Source: Spirochaetota bacterium (GTDB lineage Bacteria; Spirochaetota; UBA4802; JAGODF01). Taken from it: a DNA stretch of 34,394 nucleotides. The translations under genes and the position numbers were made by a program. A model generated the notes under the pieces. The model saw nothing but the letters and a program-made list of their open reading frames with translations. It did not search any database and was not told the origin of the DNA. The DNA lies in NCBI GenBank assembly GCA_026419015.1, contig JAOAAF010000021.1:1-34394 (forward strand). The letters are read 5' to 3'. Below, piece by piece: positions 21,259 through 30,695 of the stretch (position 1 is its first letter; the number at the start of each line of letters is the position of its first letter).

Positions 21259-23079
21259 TCATTCACCTTTTTCTGGTGGGTACATGCTCTCGATTTCCGC
21301 TGCATATTTTTGTTCAATTACGCGCCGTTTTACTTTTAACGTAGGAGTAAGTTCACCAGTGGCTTGAGTCCACTCCGCATCGAGAAGCTTAAATTTTCGA
21401 ATTTGTTCAACACGCGCAAAATTTTTCGTATATTTTTCAATTTCCTTTGCAATCAAGTCATTCACGCGGCTATCGTTAATGAGTTCTTGCCGGGATGAAA
21501 ACTGAATACCTTGCTTTTTGGCCCATTTTTCCACTTCGGCAAAATTAGGAATTACAAGCGCCGAGAGATATTTTCGGCGATCACCTATGACTGCAATTTG
21601 CTCAATATACTTAGAAGCTTTTACGCTATTTTCAATATTTTGTGGGGAAATATTTTTCCCACCGGCTGTAACAATGATGTCTTTTATTCTTCCAGTAATG
21701 TACAATCTTCCCTGTTCATCAATTGTGCCAATATCCCCTGTGCGAAAATATCCATCTTTTGTGAATGCTTCTCTCGTAGCTTTTCTATTTTTATAATACC
21801 CCATCATTACCTGTGGCCCTTTGATGAGTATCTCTCCTTCATCAGATATTTTGATATCAGTTTCAACAAGAGGCCTTCCAACTGACCCTGGTTTAATTTC
21901 CCCCGGTCGGTTCACATTCGTGACAGGAGTGGTTTCGGTAAGCCCAAAACCTTCCAATACAACAATTCCCATCCCAAGGAAGAATTCTGCGTCGCTGACA
22001 GAAAGCGGTCCTCCGCCCGATACGGCAAAACGAAGCCTATCCAAACCGAGCGCTGCTTTTAATTTTGAATAAAAAAGTTTATCGATAATCTTGTATTCCA
22101 GCGCTAAAATACCGCGCGGTTTTTTGTTTTGGCACACATAGGGGAGATTTCTCCGGGCTACGCTCATGCCCCATTTAAAGATGAGTTTTTTAATTCCTTT
22201 AATATCTGCAACGCGACTTAAAATTCCCGCATGGATTTTTTCGTACAAACGGGGGACGCTAATCAACACATGGGGGCGAATTTCCTGAAGATTTTGTTGA
22301 ATTGTCGAAAAATCTTCTGCAAACGCAACTTTTAGCCCCGCTGCAACTGGCATATAGTACCCAGCAGTTCGTTCGAGCGAATGCGAAAGCGGCAAGAACG
22401 ATAAAAATGTAAAATCGTCTTCAAACATATTCCCAAAATCGGCTTTAATTTGATACAGATTTGATAAGAAGTTATCGTGCGAAAGCATTACGCCTTTCGG
22501 ATTACCAGTTGTCCCCGACGTATATATGATAGTTGCCATATCTTTAAGCTTCACAGCTTTCAAGCGCCTCTCAAATTCCCCTTTGTGTTTTGCGTTATAT
22601 GCTTCTCCCTTTTTGTATGCTTCCTTAAGCGTTATTACACCGGCAGGCTTTTTTGAAATATCATCAAAAATTAGTATTCTTTTTAACGCCTTCAACTTTT
22701 TCTTCACAGCCAATACCCACGACAGATGATCTTCAGTGGCAACAATGCAGATTTTTGAACCAGAATGATCTATCACATATCTTGCTTCCTCGGCAGAATT
22801 TGTCGCATAGATGGGAACATTCACTGCGCCAATTGAAAGAATTGCCTGATCGGCAACCCACCATTCATACCGATTTGGTGAAAAAAGGGCCACCCTATCG
22901 CCCTTTTTAATCCCTTCTGCCATAAGATATCCTGCAAGTTTTCGGATTAGCGCATCCATTTCTTTCCAGGATATATCAACATACTTTCCCCCCATTTTTG
23001 CGGCAACACATGCCTTATCTTGCAATTTTTTTACTTGATCTTGAAACATTTCACCAATCGAATTGTATTCCTTTTCCAT
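21259..23079 (-). CDS. fadD: Long-chain fatty acyl-CoA ligase (AMP-forming)
   Basis: A 606-aa adenylate-forming enzyme that activates fatty acids with ATP and CoA. The P-loop-like motif TIIYTSGTTGNPKGVMLSH is at about residue 190, GFGLTETTPVTNVNRPG near 380, and GYFRTGDIGTIDEQGRLYITGR(I)KD near 450. The length and the N-terminal QDKACVAAKMGGKYVDISWKEMD match the FadD15/long-chain synthetase group of bacteria rather than short-chain acetyl-CoA synthetases. The ATG follows a strong SD (AAAGGAGGAGCG). It is preceded by two dyads (separate entry) and ended by a strong terminator, so it is probably monocistronic. The exact chain length is not readable from sequence. Confidence 0.92.
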   Translation of the reverse strand: MEKEYNSIGEMFQDQVKKLQDKACVAAKMGGKYVDISWKEMDALIRKLAGYLMAEGIKKGDRVALFSPNRYEWWVADQAILSIGAVNVPIYATNSAEEARYVIDHSGSKICIVATEDHLSWVLAVKKKLKALKRILIFDDISKKPAGVITLKEAYKKGEAYNAKHKGEFERRLKAVKLKDMATIIYTSGTTGNPKGVMLSHDNFLSNLYQIKADFGNMFEDDFTFLSFLPLSHSLERTAGYYMPVAAGLKVAFAEDFSTIQQNLQEIRPHVLISVPRLYEKIHAGILSRVADIKGIKKLIFKWGMSVARRNLPYVCQNKKPRGILALEYKIIDKLFYSKLKAALGLDRLRFAVSGGGPLSVSDAEFFLGMGIVVLEGFGLTETTPVTNVNRPGEIKPGSVGRPLVETDIKISDEGEILIKGPQVMMGYYKNRKATREAFTKDGYFRTGDIGTIDEQGRLYITGRIKDIIVTAGGKNISPQNIENSVKASKYIEQIAVIGDRRKYLSALVIPNFAEVEKWAKKQGIQFSSRQELINDSRVNDLIAKEIEKYTKNFARVEQIRKFKLLDAEWTQATGELTPTLKVKRRVIEQKYAAEIESMYPPEKGE

Positions 23080-24661: not shown

Positions 24662-24764
24662 AGATACCACCTCGTAAAACGCATCTATGCGCTATACCGT
24701 GATCTGTCAATCATGAATACGATGCGTTAATTTTTGGTCAAATTTTTACAGAAATCAAAAAAGC

Positions 24765-24841: not shown

Positions 24842-25873
24842 GTGCGTATACTTGCATATTTCGATTCATCGCACGACATGCCCGAGGAAATAATAATCGC
24901 TGCTGGATTTACGCCAATGAAAATAATGGGAGATGTTCATCAACCGAATGACCCGGCAGACCAATATTTGCAAAAATTCTTCTGCCCTGCTGCGCGCAGT
25001 TTCCTTACGCAAGCTCTTGCCCAATCCGCCCAATGGGCAGGGATTGTTGTTGCACACGGGTGCGATGCAACAAACAGGCACTACGATGTATGGAAGCGCC
25101 ATGTACAAACCCCCTTTCTTTACTGGTTCAACAGTCCCATTCGTAATGATGACATCGCAAAGCGTTTTTACATTGCCGAGCTTAAACGATTAATCGCTGC
25201 ACTTGAAAAACATTTCAATATTTCAATCTCGCACGATAATCTGAAATCAGCAATTGCACAATCAAACGAAATAAAAATCCGTTTAAAAACGATTGCGGCG
25301 CTGCGCTCTACGAAAGATATTTCCAACAGCGAATACTTCAACACCATCGTCGCATGCCTCACGAAACCAAAAAACGAATGCATTGACCTTTTAAAACAAA
25401 TCGAAGTTGAGTGGAAAAATAGACCCCCGTTTCCACAAAATAAAAAGCGATTTTACCTTACTGGTTCAGACATCACCTATGTAGAGTGGATGGAACTTCT
25501 GGATGAATGCAGTATTCGAATTGTCCGTGATGATCTTTCAATTGGGGAACGATATTTCACAACAACCATTCCAGAAGGCAACGATCCTCTCGAAGCAATT
25601 GCAGAATACTATCTTACCATACCACGCCCGGCAACAAAAATATCGCTTGATGGTAGAATCGAATTCATCGTAAACTCTTTGAGGGAAACGCCTGTCGATG
25701 CAGTGCTTTCCCAAAATTTGAAATTCTGTGAACCATACGCATACGATGCAGTACCCGTAAACAACGAGCTTCGCAAAAGAGGTTTTAAGGTCTTACACCT
25801 TGAGCGGGAGTTTACACCTCTATTTGACCAGCAGGTGATCAACCGAATTTCCGCATTTCGTGAGATGTTATGA
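24842..25873 (+). CDS. 2-hydroxyacyl-CoA dehydratase / benzoyl-CoA reductase family subunit (first)
   Basis: This 343-aa protein belongs to the HgdA/HgdB/BcrB-like family of [4Fe-4S] proteins. The three family cysteine positions are present: C48 (FFCPAAR), C74 (VVAHGCDATNRHYDVWK) and C296 (NLKFCEPYAYD). The ORF-track start at 24734 adds an implausible tail; GTG 24842 has AAAGGAG seven bases upstream (a TTG three bases earlier is the alternative). Family members catalyse difficult radical dehydrations or reductions of acyl-CoA thioesters after ATP-driven activation. The activating ATPase (HgdC/BcrAD type) is not in the window. The stop nearly touches the second subunit. The substrate is unknown, and a role outside acyl-CoA chemistry, as in double-cubane proteins, is possible. 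Confidence 0.82.
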   Translation: MRILAYFDSSHDMPEEIIIAAGFTPMKIMGDVHQPNDPADQYLQKFFCPAARSFLTQALAQSAQWAGIVVAHGCDATNRHYDVWKRHVQTPFLYWFNSPIRNDDIAKRFYIAELKRLIAALEKHFNISISHDNLKSAIAQSNEIKIRLKTIAALRSTKDISNSEYFNTIVACLTKPKNECIDLLKQIEVEWKNRPPFPQNKKRFYLTGSDITYVEWMELLDECSIRIVRDDLSIGERYFTTTIPEGNDPLEAIAEYYLTIPRPATKISLDGRIEFIVNSLRETPVDAVLSQNLKFCEPYAYDAVPVNNELRKRGFKVLHLEREFTPLFDQQVINRISAFREML

Positions 25874-25881
25874 GGAATACC

Positions 25882-27159
25882 ATGGCACAGCAACACGCTA
25901 CTTCACAATCGCCTATTCGAATCAAAACTCTCCCACATGCACAAGAATTAAAAAAGCCAATGATGTACTATTTTTTGCGAAGCATTATCTATCCAAAACT
26001 GCCGTGGAAGCTTACCGCATGGACAGGTGCTGGATTCCCAATTGAACTTTTGTGGGCTTACAATGTATTTCCACTTCATCCCGAAAATATGGCAACAGTT
26101 GCTGCGGCACGGAAACAATCACAGCGCCTCATTGAACATGCCGAAGGGATGGGATATTCGAGAGATCTCTGTTCGTACTGCAAAACCAATTTTGGTGCAG
26201 TGGACACGAAGATAAAAACATCGCTCGGTGGCATCGCGAAACCCGATTTCATCGCCATCACGAACACTATCTGCGATACTCATTGGAAATGGTTTCAAAT
26301 CCAAGCGCGAAACTTTAATGTTCCCGCTTTTATTTTTGATTGCCCAAGCTATGTGAGCGGCACCAGCGATGAAACCCTGGAAGGATATATCGACTATCTG
26401 GTTGAACAGTTTTTTGACTTCGCGGCATTTATGGAAAAGCATTTCGGGAAAAAGCTTACCGAAAAGAAAATGCGAAAGGTATTGGAAAAATCGGACAGGC
26501 TTTGTCAACTGTGGCAAGAAATTTACGAATTGCGGAAAGCAATTCCTGCTCCATACAGTTCAGCTGAAACATCTGCTTCGTTTTTCCCACTCGTTGTTTT
26601 GTGCGGAGTCGATGTCGGTATAAAGTTTTTCGAAAAAATTTTAGCCGATCTCAAAGAGCGTGTGGCAAAGGGTGAAGGAACTCTTACTTCGGGAAAAGAA
26701 AAATATCGCCTCCTCTTTGAAGGCATTCCTTTCTGGTATAAAATGAAATTCATGTACGAACTTGCAAACTACGAAGCGGTTGTGGTATACGAACCATATA
26801 CGTATTCCTTTGGCCCTCGAAAACCGCTTAATTTAAGCCTTGAAGAAACTCTTCGCCACGTCGCTCGTCTTATGCTCGATATCCCTTACAGTTATAATCT
26901 TGAAAAGCGCATCGATTACTTCAAACGCTGCATTGCCGAATACAACATCGATGGCGTCATTTTGCACGAAAATATGTCATGTCGGCCTTCGTGTTCTGGA
27001 ATGCTCGATTTGAAAGAAGCAATACAAAAGGAATGCAAAATACCAGTTCTTATTCTACAATGCGACATGAACGATCCCCGCGCGTATGCGGAAGGACCAA
27101 TCAAGACGCGCATCGAAGGATTTATTGAACTTTTGGCTGCCAACAAAAAAGCGAAATAA
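25882..27159 (+). CDS. 2-hydroxyacyl-CoA dehydratase / benzoyl-CoA reductase family subunit (second)
   Basis: A 425-aa partner of the preceding gene with the family layout AGFPIELLWAYNVFPLHPEN, then cysteines C97/C100 (SRDLCSYCKTNFG), C131 (ITNTICDTHW) and C367/C371 (HENMSCRPSCSG), ending in the characteristic LQCDMNDPRAYAEGPIKTRIEGF. The second and last cysteine positions are typical cluster ligands of HgdB/BcrC-like proteins. ATG 25870 would overlap the upstream stop (ATGA), but ATG 25882 has GAGG at better spacing. The pair would form the usual heterodimer. It is followed after 93 bases by DUF39 on the same strand, which may place it in a sulfur or amino-acid context rather than fermentation. 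Confidence 0.85.
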   Translation: MAQQHATSQSPIRIKTLPHAQELKKPMMYYFLRSIIYPKLPWKLTAWTGAGFPIELLWAYNVFPLHPENMATVAAARKQSQRLIEHAEGMGYSRDLCSYCKTNFGAVDTKIKTSLGGIAKPDFIAITNTICDTHWKWFQIQARNFNVPAFIFDCPSYVSGTSDETLEGYIDYLVEQFFDFAAFMEKHFGKKLTEKKMRKVLEKSDRLCQLWQEIYELRKAIPAPYSSAETSASFFPLVVLCGVDVGIKFFEKILADLKERVAKGEGTLTSGKEKYRLLFEGIPFWYKMKFMYELANYEAVVVYEPYTYSFGPRKPLNLSLEETLRHVARLMLDIPYSYNLEKRIDYFKRCIAEYNIDGVILHENMSCRPSCSGMLDLKEAIQKECKIPVLILQCDMNDPRAYAEGPIKTRIEGFIELLAANKKAK

Positions 27160-27187
27160 ATATCTTCGTGTTTTTCGAATAGTTTCC

Positions 27188-27229
27188 TTGACAAAATTTT
27201 GTTTTTCCCAATTTTGTAACTGTGATAAT
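27188..27229 (+). promoter_or_regulatory. Possible control region before the DUF39 gene
   Basis: The 93-base gap contains TTGACA (27188-27193) running into the perfect palindrome ACAAAATTTTGT (27191-27202), a second AATTTTGT at 27210-27217, and an extended -10-like TGTGATAAT (27221-27229). The TTGACA to GATAAT spacing is too long for one sigma-70 promoter, so the two boxes may not belong together. The palindrome overlaps the -35-like box as an operator would. The function is inferred. Confidence 0.35.
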
Positions 27230-27252
27230 TTTAAAGAAACAACTATATTTTT

Positions 27253-28443
27253 ATGGAAACTGTTCCCATTAAAAAAACATACGAAGAAATAAATGCTCGC
27301 ATAAAAAAAGGTGAAGCAGTGGTAGTCACTGCTGAAGAGATGGTCAACATCGTAAAACGCGAAGGCGTAAAATCCGCTTTTAAAAAGGTAGATGTGGTTA
27401 CCACAGGTACATTCGGTGCCATGTGTTCTTCTGGGGCTTTTCTCAATTTTGGTCATACTACGCCTCGCATGAAAGCAACAAAGGTGTGGCTTAACGATGT
27501 CGAAGCCTATGGGGGGCTTGCTGCTGTTGACTGTTACATAGGTGCAACGCAAGTCCAAGAAGACGACCCTCTCAACAAAGTTCACCCTGGCAAATTTCAA
27601 TATGGCGGGGGACATGTCATCGAAGATCTCATTGCAGGAAGACCGGTACGGCTAAGAGCGAAAGCGTATGGCACTGATTGTTATCCGTTAAGGGAGTTTG
27701 AAAAAACTATTACGATACGCGATCTTCGCAATGCATTCCTCTACAATCCGCGCAATTGTTATCAAAATTATAACTGTGCAGTAAACTGTTCAAAAAAAAC
27801 AATATATACTTACATGGGAATTCTTCGGCCGCACATGGCTAATGCGACATACTCAAGCGCAGGGCAGCTCAGCCCACTGTTAAAAGATCCCTACTATTGG
27901 ACTATTGGTACTGGTACAAAAATATTCTTAGCTGGTTCGGTTGGCGTTGTCACCTGGCAAGGCACACAACATTCGCCCAATTGCATTCGTGGAGAAAATG
28001 GCATACCAAAAGAAGGTGCAGGAACCATTGCAGTAACGGGCGATATGAAACAGATGAATGCGCGATACATTCGCGGTGCTTCAATTACTGGATATGGATG
28101 CTCATTGTTTGTGGGCATTGGCATCCCAATCCCAATCCTTAATGAAGAATTAGCATATTTTACTGGAATTGGCGATGAAGAAATTTTCTGTCAGGTGATC
28201 GATTATGGAAATGATTATCCACTTGGACAGCCAAAAAGCCTTGGCGAAGTAAGCTATGCGCAACTCAAAAGCGGACAAATTCACATTTTAGGCAAAACTA
28301 TTCCTACTGCACCGCTTTCGAGCTATCCAATGGCGCGCGAAATTGCATGCAAGTTAAAACAATGGATACAAGATCAAAAATTTACATTGGGAATTCCACA
28401 ATTCCCACTACCAACAATCCCGTGTACAATTACCATTGAATAG
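27253..28443 (+). CDS. DUF39 (COG1900) homocysteine biosynthesis protein
   Basis: DUF39 proteins are needed in methanogens and some anaerobic bacteria to make homocysteine from aspartate semialdehyde and sulfide, without O-acyl-homoserine. The family signature is clear: KTYEEINARIKKGEAVVVTAEEM, VVTTGTFGAMCSSGAFLNFGH, VWLNDVEAYGGLAAVDCYIG, and later GVVTWQGTQHSP. Conserved-looking cysteines occur in GAMCSSG, AVDCYIG, GTDCYP and NYNCAVNC. At 396 aa it consists of the DUF39 domain alone, without the C-terminal CBS domains found in some archaeal homologues. It overlaps the UPF0280 gene by eight bases and lies upstream of a NIL-ferredoxin, the classic partner set. The pathway role here is inferred from family and context. 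Confidence 0.92.
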   Translation: METVPIKKTYEEINARIKKGEAVVVTAEEMVNIVKREGVKSAFKKVDVVTTGTFGAMCSSGAFLNFGHTTPRMKATKVWLNDVEAYGGLAAVDCYIGATQVQEDDPLNKVHPGKFQYGGGHVIEDLIAGRPVRLRAKAYGTDCYPLREFEKTITIRDLRNAFLYNPRNCYQNYNCAVNCSKKTIYTYMGILRPHMANATYSSAGQLSPLLKDPYYWTIGTGTKIFLAGSVGVVTWQGTQHSPNCIRGENGIPKEGAGTIAVTGDMKQMNARYIRGASITGYGCSLFVGIGIPIPILNEELAYFTGIGDEEIFCQVIDYGNDYPLGQPKSLGEVSYAQLKSGQIHILGKTIPTAPLSSYPMAREIACKLKQWIQDQKFTLGIPQFPLPTIPCTITIE

Positions 28444-29167
28444 ATTTGAAGAACCATTTTATCGCGATTTAAAAAACAATGTGCGCTGGCACACCTTTCG
28501 GGTAAAGGTGGAAACCAGCGACCTATATATTCGCGCGCACTGCGAACTTTTTAACGAAGCAAAAATTGTGGTGGAAGAACTTAGGGAACAGCTGCGCACC
28601 CATATCGCTATGCAACCCGATTTTCTAAGCGCGCTTTCCCCAATACCTCGCCTTGAAGATGTTCCCGAAATTATTGCAATAATGTACGAAGCTTCTGAAA
28701 AAGCGAAAGTTGGTCCAATGGCAGCAGTTGCAGGGGCAATCGCACAATGCGTTGGTAAAAAACTTCTTTCAAAAAGCAATGAAATAATAGTTGAAAACGG
28801 CGGAGATATATGGTTGCATGTAAATTTACCGACAACAATTGGGTTGTATGCAGGAAACTCAGCTTTTTCCTCAAAAATTGGCCTCAAAGTTTACCCACAT
28901 CAAATGCCGATGGGAATTTGTACTTCATCAGCAAAGGTGGGCCACTCATTTAGTTTTGGAAATGCCGACGCTGTCACAATTTGCGCGTGCGATGCTGCTT
29001 TAGCCGATGCCATCGCTACCGAAACGTGCAATCGCGTAAAAAATGAAAACGATATAGTGCATGCCTTAAACTATGCGCTTTCAATCGACGGCGTGTGTGC
29101 GGCAATCATCGTATTGAGAGATAAAATTGGAATTAAAGGTGATGTTGAACTTGTGGATATATCTTGA
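28436..29167 (+). CDS. UPF0280 (COG2122) ApbE-like protein
   Basis: A 243-aa protein of the UPF0280 family, distantly related to ApbE flavin transferases. Family motifs are KVGPMAAVAGAIAQCVGKKLL, EIIVENGGDIWLHV, MGICTSSAKVGHSFSFGNADAVTI and AALADAIATETCN. COG2122 repeatedly occurs with DUF39 and NIL-ferredoxin and has been linked to homocysteine synthesis or sulfide handling in anaerobes; its biochemical activity is unsettled. The start is TTG 28436, inside the end of the DUF39 gene, with no strong SD, so translation is probably coupled. A promoter-like TTGACA overlaps its stop codon. Confidence 0.9.
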   Translation: MNRFEEPFYRDLKNNVRWHTFRVKVETSDLYIRAHCELFNEAKIVVEELREQLRTHIAMQPDFLSALSPIPRLEDVPEIIAIMYEASEKAKVGPMAAVAGAIAQCVGKKLLSKSNEIIVENGGDIWLHVNLPTTIGLYAGNSAFSSKIGLKVYPHQMPMGICTSSAKVGHSFSFGNADAVTICACDAALADAIATETCNRVKNENDIVHALNYALSIDGVCAAIIVLRDKIGIKGDVELVDIS

Positions 29168-29192
29168 CAAAATAAAGAAGGAAACCTAAAAT
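29164..29192 (+). promoter_or_regulatory. Sigma-70-like promoter before the NIL-ferredoxin gene
   Basis: A consensus TTGACA (29164-29169) followed after exactly 17 bases by TAAAAT (29187-29192) lies between UPF0280 and the NIL-ferredoxin; the -35 box overlaps the UPF0280 TGA stop. This is the best promoter match I see in the window. Downstream, before the SD, a 6-bp dyad ACGAAT/ATTCGT (29231-29253) followed by TTTTTAAGTTTTT could be a weak terminator or attenuator. Confidence 0.5.
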
Positions 29193-29280
29193 CTTAATAA
29201 TACGCATTTGTTTTTTGAATAATCGCTAACACGAATTGTTGCTTGATATTCGTTTTTAAGTTTTTAAAGGAAAAATTACT

Positions 29281-29739
29281 ATGGAAGAAAGGAAAAGCAT
29301 ATCGATAAATGTCCTTTTGATTTTCAACCAAAAGATCATGTACAAACCAATCATTTACAGACTGGCGGGGGATTTCGACATCGTGTTCAACGTTTTGGAA
29401 GCGAAAATTCTGCCAAAACAGGAAGGAAGAATAATTTTAGAATTACAAGGCAAGGAAGAAAATTTGCAGCGGTGCATTGAATACCTTAAAAACGAACAAG
29501 TGCAGGTTGAAATTCTTGCCGACAAGATGCATCGCGATGATTCGCGATGCATACACTGCGGCGCATGTACTGCTGTCTGCCGAACAGATGCTCTTTCGAT
29601 TAATCGCGCGACGATGGAAGTAATATTTATACCTGAAAAATGCGTCGCATGTGGATTATGCATCATGGCGTGTCCAATGAAAGCAATGTCGGGAATTGCC
29701 ATCGACAAAGATATTGACAACGAAACAATCGCACAGTAA
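29281..29739 (+). CDS. NIL-domain two-cluster ferredoxin
   Basis: A 152-aa protein. Residues of about 15-80 are a NIL domain (ligand-binding fold also found at the end of MetN methionine transporters), and residues of about 88-140 form a 2[4Fe-4S] ferredoxin with CIHCGACTAVC and CVACGLCIMACP. The first cluster motif ends in CR rather than CP. In anaerobes this NIL-ferredoxin supplies or relays electrons in the DUF39-dependent homocysteine pathway. The ATG follows AAAGGAAAAA. The junction of the two domains is encoded over a perfect 10-bp inverted repeat (separate entry). It lies 113 bases after UPF0280 with its own promoter-like site. Confidence 0.9.
   Translation: MEERKSISINVLLIFNQKIMYKPIIYRLAGDFDIVFNVLEAKILPKQEGRIILELQGKEENLQRCIEYLKNEQVQVEILADKMHRDDSRCIHCGACTAVCRTDALSINRATMEVIFIPEKCVACGLCIMACPMKAMSGIAIDKDIDNETIAQ
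29527..29552. repeat. Perfect inverted repeat at the NIL / ferredoxin domain boundary
   Basis: ATGCATCGCG (29527-29536) and CGCGATGCAT (29543-29552) are exact reverse complements around a 6-base loop, inside the coding region. They encode the short linker KMHRDDSRCIH between the two domains. Such a strong hairpin inside a coding sequence stands out here; it may be chance, a pause site or a trace of a rearrangement. Confidence 0.6.
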
Positions 29740-29783: not shown

Positions 29784-30695
29784 ATGGCGGGGAGAATTGG
29801 CGACGATTTCGATTTGGAGAGCGCGTTTAGCGATGATTCTCAAATCGATGCTCTTTTTGCTGATACCGAAACAACACGGCCTATCGACAATAACAAACGT
29901 TTGTCAAAAACCGTACCTCCACAAACAAAAAAAGAAATGACCAATAGCTTTTTAGAACCTGTTGAGAGTTCAGATCAAAAGAAGCGAATTGAAGAAGAGC
30001 GCAAGCGCACCTCAAAGGATTTTGAACTCAATATGGACGCGATCTTACTTACTGCCCAATCCGCGATGATCATCGAAGGTATTAAATGCTACTCAACAAA
30101 AGATTTTTCTCCTGCAACTTTACCCATTTATATTGAAGCGCTCAAAGGAATTGATCTTTATATAAAAATCATCGACCGAAATCCAACAAACTACAATAAA
30201 TTAAAAACAATCATCGATACTGACATCGACTGCCAGCGAGTCGAAAACACTGCGTTTAATCTCTTTAAAAAATTATTCGGTCGCATGCCCGATGATAATT
30301 CTGAAAAAATAATTGCATTTGAAAAGTTTCGCTTGCTTTTCGAAAATGCAAAAAACAAAGCAACCATAAGCACAGCATCCAAAACAATCAAAAAATACTG
30401 TCTCCTTTCAGGCGGAGTCGATAAAGAAAAAGTTAATAAACTGGTGCAATCGAAAGATCGGGAACTGCTAAGCGACATCAATGCGCTTTTAGGTCATATA
30501 CAGCTTGCAATCGAAATGGTAAAAACAGGAAATTTTGAAATAGTTCAGGGGCTACGGGGAAGAGATCTTAATGCATTCATCATCAATTCATCGGAGCTTT
30601 TAAGTTATTACTTTCGCACAGTGGGCAATATTCAGGCAGCTGCATACTATGAGCGAATCCACACTAACTATAAGAAATACTTTATCACCAAATGA
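29784..30695 (+). CDS. Unrecognised helical cytoplasmic protein
   Basis: A 303-aa protein without signal peptide or membrane helix. The first roughly 85 residues are acidic and low-complexity (DDFDLESAFSDDSQIDALFAD), then charged (KKRIEEERKRTSKDFE). The remaining 215 residues look all-helical, with stretches such as ALKGIDLYIKIIDRNPTNYN and AAAYYERIHTNYKKYF that recall TPR-like or scaffold proteins. I do not recognise a family. The ATG has AAGGG upstream; the 44-base gap to the NIL-ferredoxin makes cotranscription possible. Its end lies only six bases from the convergent hemW end. An assembly or regulatory role is possible, but nothing in the sequence fixes a function. Confidence 0.75.
   Translation: MAGRIGDDFDLESAFSDDSQIDALFADTETTRPIDNNKRLSKTVPPQTKKEMTNSFLEPVESSDQKKRIEEERKRTSKDFELNMDAILLTAQSAMIIEGIKCYSTKDFSPATLPIYIEALKGIDLYIKIIDRNPTNYNKLKTIIDTDIDCQRVENTAFNLFKKLFGRMPDDNSEKIIAFEKFRLLFENAKNKATISTASKTIKKYCLLSGGVDKEKVNKLVQSKDRELLSDINALLGHIQLAIEMVKTGNFEIVQGLRGRDLNAFIINSSELLSYYFRTVGNIQAAAYYERIHTNYKKYFITK

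Follow-up and report, generated by a model that had tools for sequence, protein, structure and literature searches.

The DNA examined here (the window) is a stretch of 34,394 nucleotides, contig C112 of a Spirochaetota genome of 3.0 Mb in 217 contigs (G000), in which two genes for the HGD subunits of an oxygen-sensitive acyl-CoA enzyme, from the benzoyl-CoA reductase / 2-hydroxyacyl-CoA dehydratase (BCR/HAD) family, lie directly upstream of the DUF39, UPF0280 and NIL-ferredoxin genes of a homocysteine set. Does the HGD pair take part in homocysteine synthesis, as an initial annotation proposed from gene order while allowing for coincidence, or is the set a chance neighbour? We regard the proposed functional tie as weak, and consider the pair to be probably a conventional activator-dependent component of the BCR/HAD family, adjacent in one bacterial family to an ordinary, self-sufficient homocysteine set. 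If the adjacency is due to chance, it is a warning against reading function from a single locus; should the methionine-related neighbours described below have a functional basis, a radical acyl-CoA enzyme would prove to act in the metabolism of sulfur amino acids, and the DUF39 pathway, which is poorly understood, would have a new player.

The five-gene locus and its transcription

The window carries five adjacent open reading frames on one strand, at the positions given to them in the initial annotation, and matches to PF06050, PF01837, NF003323 and the NIL and Fer4 domains bear out the identities that it had assigned. The features are:

24842-25873, plus strand: HGD1, HadC/BzdN-like subunit (component D, the second cluster subunit); PF06050, 237 bits
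25870-27159, plus strand: HGD2, HadB/BzdO-like catalytic subunit; PF06050, 257 bits
27160-27252, plus strand: HGD2-DUF39 intergenic gap, 93 bp; a separate DUF39 promoter is possible
27253-28443, plus strand: DUF39 (HcyBio), L-aspartate semialdehyde sulfurtransferase catalytic subunit family; PF01837 over 1-349 of 349 positions, 522 bits
28436-29167, plus strand: UPF0280 (COG2122); NCBIfam NF003323, 286 bits against a cut-off of 271
29281-29739, plus strand: NIL-ferredoxin; PF09383 (NIL) and two Fer4 domains
29784-30695, plus strand: ORF303, the next gene after NIL-ferredoxin in all three family members

HGD1 and HGD2 both clear the PF06050 cut-off of 28.4 bits and overlap by 4 bp. The HGD1 frame is open from a TTG at 24734, the GTG at 24842 agrees with the starts of its relatives, and its stop ends at 25873. 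ORF303, which has no Pfam or NCBIfam match, is 61-63% identical in two relatives of the window genome (G001 and G003).

The three proteins of the homocysteine set are all present, contiguous and full length. They are the same three as in the known L-aspartate semialdehyde sulfurtransferase pathway, with the HGD pair added upstream. Homocysteine synthesis in Desulfovibrio needs DUF39, NIL-ferredoxin and COG2122, and the available part of that report mentions no HGD protein (PMC5764234); the Methanosarcina enzyme has been described as a two-subunit sulfurtransferase (PMC12068725). A literature search returned no paper tying HGD proteins to the DUF39 homocysteine pathway. The window genome additionally encodes a MetY-type O-acetylhomoserine sulfhydrylase, adjoining cysK (L293:2932-5252, contig C141), and the DUF39 set may therefore not be its only route to homocysteine.

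In the window's family (f1) the gap between HGD2 and DUF39 ranges from the 93 bp of the window, in which no terminator was found, to about 155 bp in G001, where it carries TTGACA-17-TACTAT (shuffled sequence gives 0.1). A promoter of its own for DUF39, clear in this relative, is plausible in the window, and given the 93-bp gap the five genes may not share a single transcript. In the rest of the order, DUF39 is mostly preceded by a divergent gene across a gap of more than 100 bp, so that the set normally begins its own transcript.

Cluster ligands, active site and activator

The fold of the HGD pair is settled by sequence matches to solved structures: HGD1 matches 3o3m_B and 8s02_B, its best solved match being BzdN, and HGD2 matches 3o3m_A (E 5e-44) and 8s02_A, its best matches being HadB. 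According to the BzdNO structure paper, six irons of the [8Fe-9S] double cubane in BzdN are bound by cysteines, and HadC-type subunits contain a [4Fe-5S] remnant (PMC11971306). HGD1 retains three of the six BzdN cysteines (C48, C74 and C296), which are invariant in all 17 orthologs, and the other double-cubane cysteines are missing from the same 17; this pattern assigns HGD1 to the dehydratase type. The cluster ligands of HGD2 (C101, C135 and C371) are likewise kept in 17 of 17, and its subfamily has the invariant motifs LCSYC and CDTHW.

The active-site candidates of HGD2, E72, H138 and W51, align with Glu65, His131 and Trp46 of BzdO and are invariant in the subfamily; in BzdNO the catalytic aqua-[4Fe-4S] cluster lies beside Glu65 and His131 (PMC11971306). 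Given these counterparts, the pair could be a reductase comparable to the class I benzoyl-CoA reductase BzdNO, an alternative with which the best solved match of HGD1 also agrees. We hold it to be rather unlikely, since HGD1 lacks the three further cysteines of the double cubane, which is the electron store in BzdN, since the best match of HGD2 is HadB, and since the histidine is missing from MbdO, another reductase, so that this active site is not diagnostic. The predicted cluster anatomy of the pair is closest to the dehydratase branch of the family.

Like HadBC, the (R)-2-hydroxyisocaproyl-CoA dehydratase (PDB 3o3m), the window pair has two subunits with three cluster cysteines each, a catalytic Glu, no double cubane and an HgdC-type activator; it differs in scoring 210.8 bits against 750 and 108.9 against 700 with the HadBC equivalogs NF052455 and NF052456, in having Ala54 in place of Ser37, in the presence of His138 and in an activator encoded in trans. 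BzdNO (PDB 8s02) shares with HGD2 the three active-site residues and the three ligands; its double-cubane cysteines are absent from HGD1, and the pair scores below its equivalog cut-offs. The double-cubane cluster protein DCCP (PDB 6eno) also differs in its double-cubane cysteines, the window genes encode a heterodimer, and HGD1 scores 141 bits with NF040772 against a cut-off of 350. With each subunit below all equivalog cut-offs, the scores point to no particular substrate.

The initial annotation had reported that no activator ATPase is present. This holds for the window; the genome, however, encodes a stand-alone HgdC-type activator on another contig (C145:11687-12430), which passes TIGR00241 with 290 bits against 125 and whose neighbours look like genes for fumarase subunits and for a Nudix protein. 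The activator missing from the window is thus encoded in trans. The C145 protein shares 63-65% identity with the activators found near orthologous pairs in Desulfobacterota and only 42-44% with those on contig C129 of its own genome; its close relatives also follow HGD pairs of another class in two genomes (G009 and G037; L205, L210). We infer that it serves the window pair. If the adjacency to DUF39 is due to chance, the pair defines a distinct HGD subfamily with a predicted activator in trans.

The C145 activator would take an electron from ferredoxin, spend ATP and hand the electron to the HGD1 cluster, from which it would pass to the aqua-[4Fe-4S] cluster of HGD2; there an acyl-CoA would be converted via a ketyl radical and the electron recycled. 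In the BCR/HAD family electrons flow from ferredoxin to the activator to the HGD component, not outwards. It was also suggested that the pair feeds low-potential electrons to DUF39 or NIL-ferredoxin. We consider this very improbable: the one point in its favour is adjacency, the flow of electrons in the family runs the opposite way, HGD1 offers no double cubane for storage, and the genetics, in the part of the Desulfovibrio report cited above, need only DUF39, NIL-ferredoxin and COG2122.

Two further groups of ATPase genes were seen in the window genome. Contig C129 (L157:1-8812) carries, in one cluster, two more HGD pairs, three activator genes and what looks from its sequence like a gene for a MinD/ParA-like ATPase. 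Contigs C158, C205 and C206 encode three proteins of about 1400 residues with two BadF-type ATPase domains each, which presumably resemble the plasmalogen synthase PlsA.

The range of the HGD-DUF39 adjacency

DUF39 was found in 36 of the genomes searched, 35 of which belong to the window's order. An HGD pair lies 5' of DUF39 solely in family f1, in three genomes of two genera (G000, G001 and G003, the copy in G003 being cut by a contig end); the fourth member of the family (G002, 69% complete) has no DUF39 match. An HGD pair is missing from 31 of the 35 DUF39 loci of the order and so is not a regular member of the locus. Among 80 DUF39 loci in named genomes, three are from members of the order, and none of the 77 outside it (about 40 with flanks of no less than 2.5 kb on the 5' side and 4 kb on the 3' side) has an HGD gene beside DUF39. 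A conserved DUF39-HGD neighbourhood, which the initial annotation proposed to look for in other genomes, is thus confined to one family.

The exception within the order is G031, where an HGD pair lies directly 3' of NIL-ferredoxin (L164:9466-14451, in the order DUF39, UPF0280, NIL-ferredoxin, HGD pair). In the tree this pair is not part of the window subfamily, and the pairs of the order most closely related to it, at 42-45% identity, are those of IclR / acyl-CoA-synthetase operons. The idea that the DUF39-linked pairs form one clade was therefore rejected for the G031 pair.

These two arrangements bear on a rival reading, that in the window's order the pair has a part in the metabolism of homocysteine, methionine or SAM and that gene order reflects this; its substrate might be, for example, a methionine- or aspartate-derived acyl-CoA, or it might serve DUF39 as a redox partner. 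We find this reading rather unlikely. The gene order is kept in the two genera of f1, but two unrelated genes, hemW and nagZ, are kept equally in the same block, and so its retention says little. In favour of the reading, a different HGD pair lies 3' of NIL-ferredoxin in G031. By rough arithmetic, 0.03-0.07 independent same-strand HGD-DUF39 adjacencies are expected in the order by chance and two were seen, one of them the discovery case; this excess over the rough expectation counts against our preferred explanation.

Outside the order, the spirochaete G048 was seen to carry two full copies of DUF39 (G048:C1:2744617 and G048:C1:2195832), one with NIL-ferredoxin directly 3'.

Orthologs of the pair and their neighbours

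Two families of the order, f4 and f7, and ten Desulfobacterota genomes carry orthologs with 65-68% identity; a sample of 250 Bacillota genomes yielded none, the best identity being 38%. In nine of the ten Desulfobacterota genomes a same-strand HgdC-type activator of 255 residues follows within 1-3 genes, and in the tenth the contig ends too early. DUF39 is found on other contigs in these genomes. Co-occurrence of HGD and DUF39 was discarded as evidence, being uninformative where 31 of 34 sampled genomes of that Desulfobacterota order have DUF39. In f4 and f7 the pair mostly stands by itself or faces an acyl-CoA synthetase gene in convergent orientation. Most orthologs thus lie away from DUF39 though their genomes carry it, which speaks against a role in homocysteine synthesis.

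Other neighbours appear to be older. G001 and G027, a member of f4 with no DUF39 beside the pair, have in common three outer-membrane-type genes next to it (61-77% identity), one of them with a sub-threshold match to FadL/TodX; this suggests that the pair stood in that setting before DUF39 adjoined it. In G001 an IclR gene lies directly upstream of the pair and is 51% identical to the IclR of a conserved module in which related pairs of the order sit, with a divergent IclR gene, HGD1-HGD2 and an acyl-CoA synthetase gene (L204, L206, L207, L208, L209 and L212). The acyl-CoA synthetase gene of the window (21262-23079) was rejected as a conserved neighbour, as it shares only 27% identity with its counterpart near the G027 pair.

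With close relatives that have an activator gene of their own and mostly other neighbours, the pair is most simply read as an ordinary dehydratase-type enzyme with a chance neighbour, the DUF39/UPF0280/NIL-ferredoxin set having probably joined it on the 3' side in an ancestor of family f1; the pair would then act independently of homocysteine synthesis. Two orthologs count against this explanation, as do the reductase-like Glu, His and Trp of HGD2. The G035 pair follows, 172 bp downstream and on the same strand, a gene for S-adenosylhomocysteine hydrolase (SAHH; L166:9493-13441), and an ArsR-methyltransferase fusion gene precedes SAHH. The G038 pair follows, about 390 bp downstream and again on the same strand, a gene for aspartate-semialdehyde dehydrogenase (Asd; L168:2146-5986), and the product of Asd is the substrate of DUF39. 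No terminator-like site was found between SAHH or Asd and the respective pair. A single clade made up of the pairs of G000, G001, G035 and G038 is neither rejected (p-AU 0.205) nor supported.

The link to homocysteine synthesis drawn in the initial annotation thus gains from the second, independent adjacency (L164) and from the SAHH and Asd neighbours, and loses from the activator encoded elsewhere and from the Desulfobacterota orthologs, which have their own activator and lie away from DUF39 in DUF39-bearing genomes. The DUF39, SAHH, Asd and G031 settings would all be explained if a radical HGD-type enzyme with an activator in trans had been recruited into homocysteine or SAM metabolism in this uncultured spirochaete order, which we consider unlikely. 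Rfam at gathering thresholds returned tRNAs only near the pair and the DUF39 operons, with no SAM-type riboswitch, and the pathway in Desulfovibrio works, according to the part of the report available, with the three known proteins (PMC5764234). We stress that which neighbours count as 'methionine-related' was decided once the data had been seen, so that these neighbours are a lead, not evidence of function.

Beside the orthologs at eight Desulfobacterota loci (L239, L240, L255, L257, L258, L260, L261 and L262) we also noted an apparent DUF523-DUF1722 (TudS-like) gene, together with a TrpB-like gene where the contig allows and, near four of them, a PRK07515-type ketoacyl synthase III.
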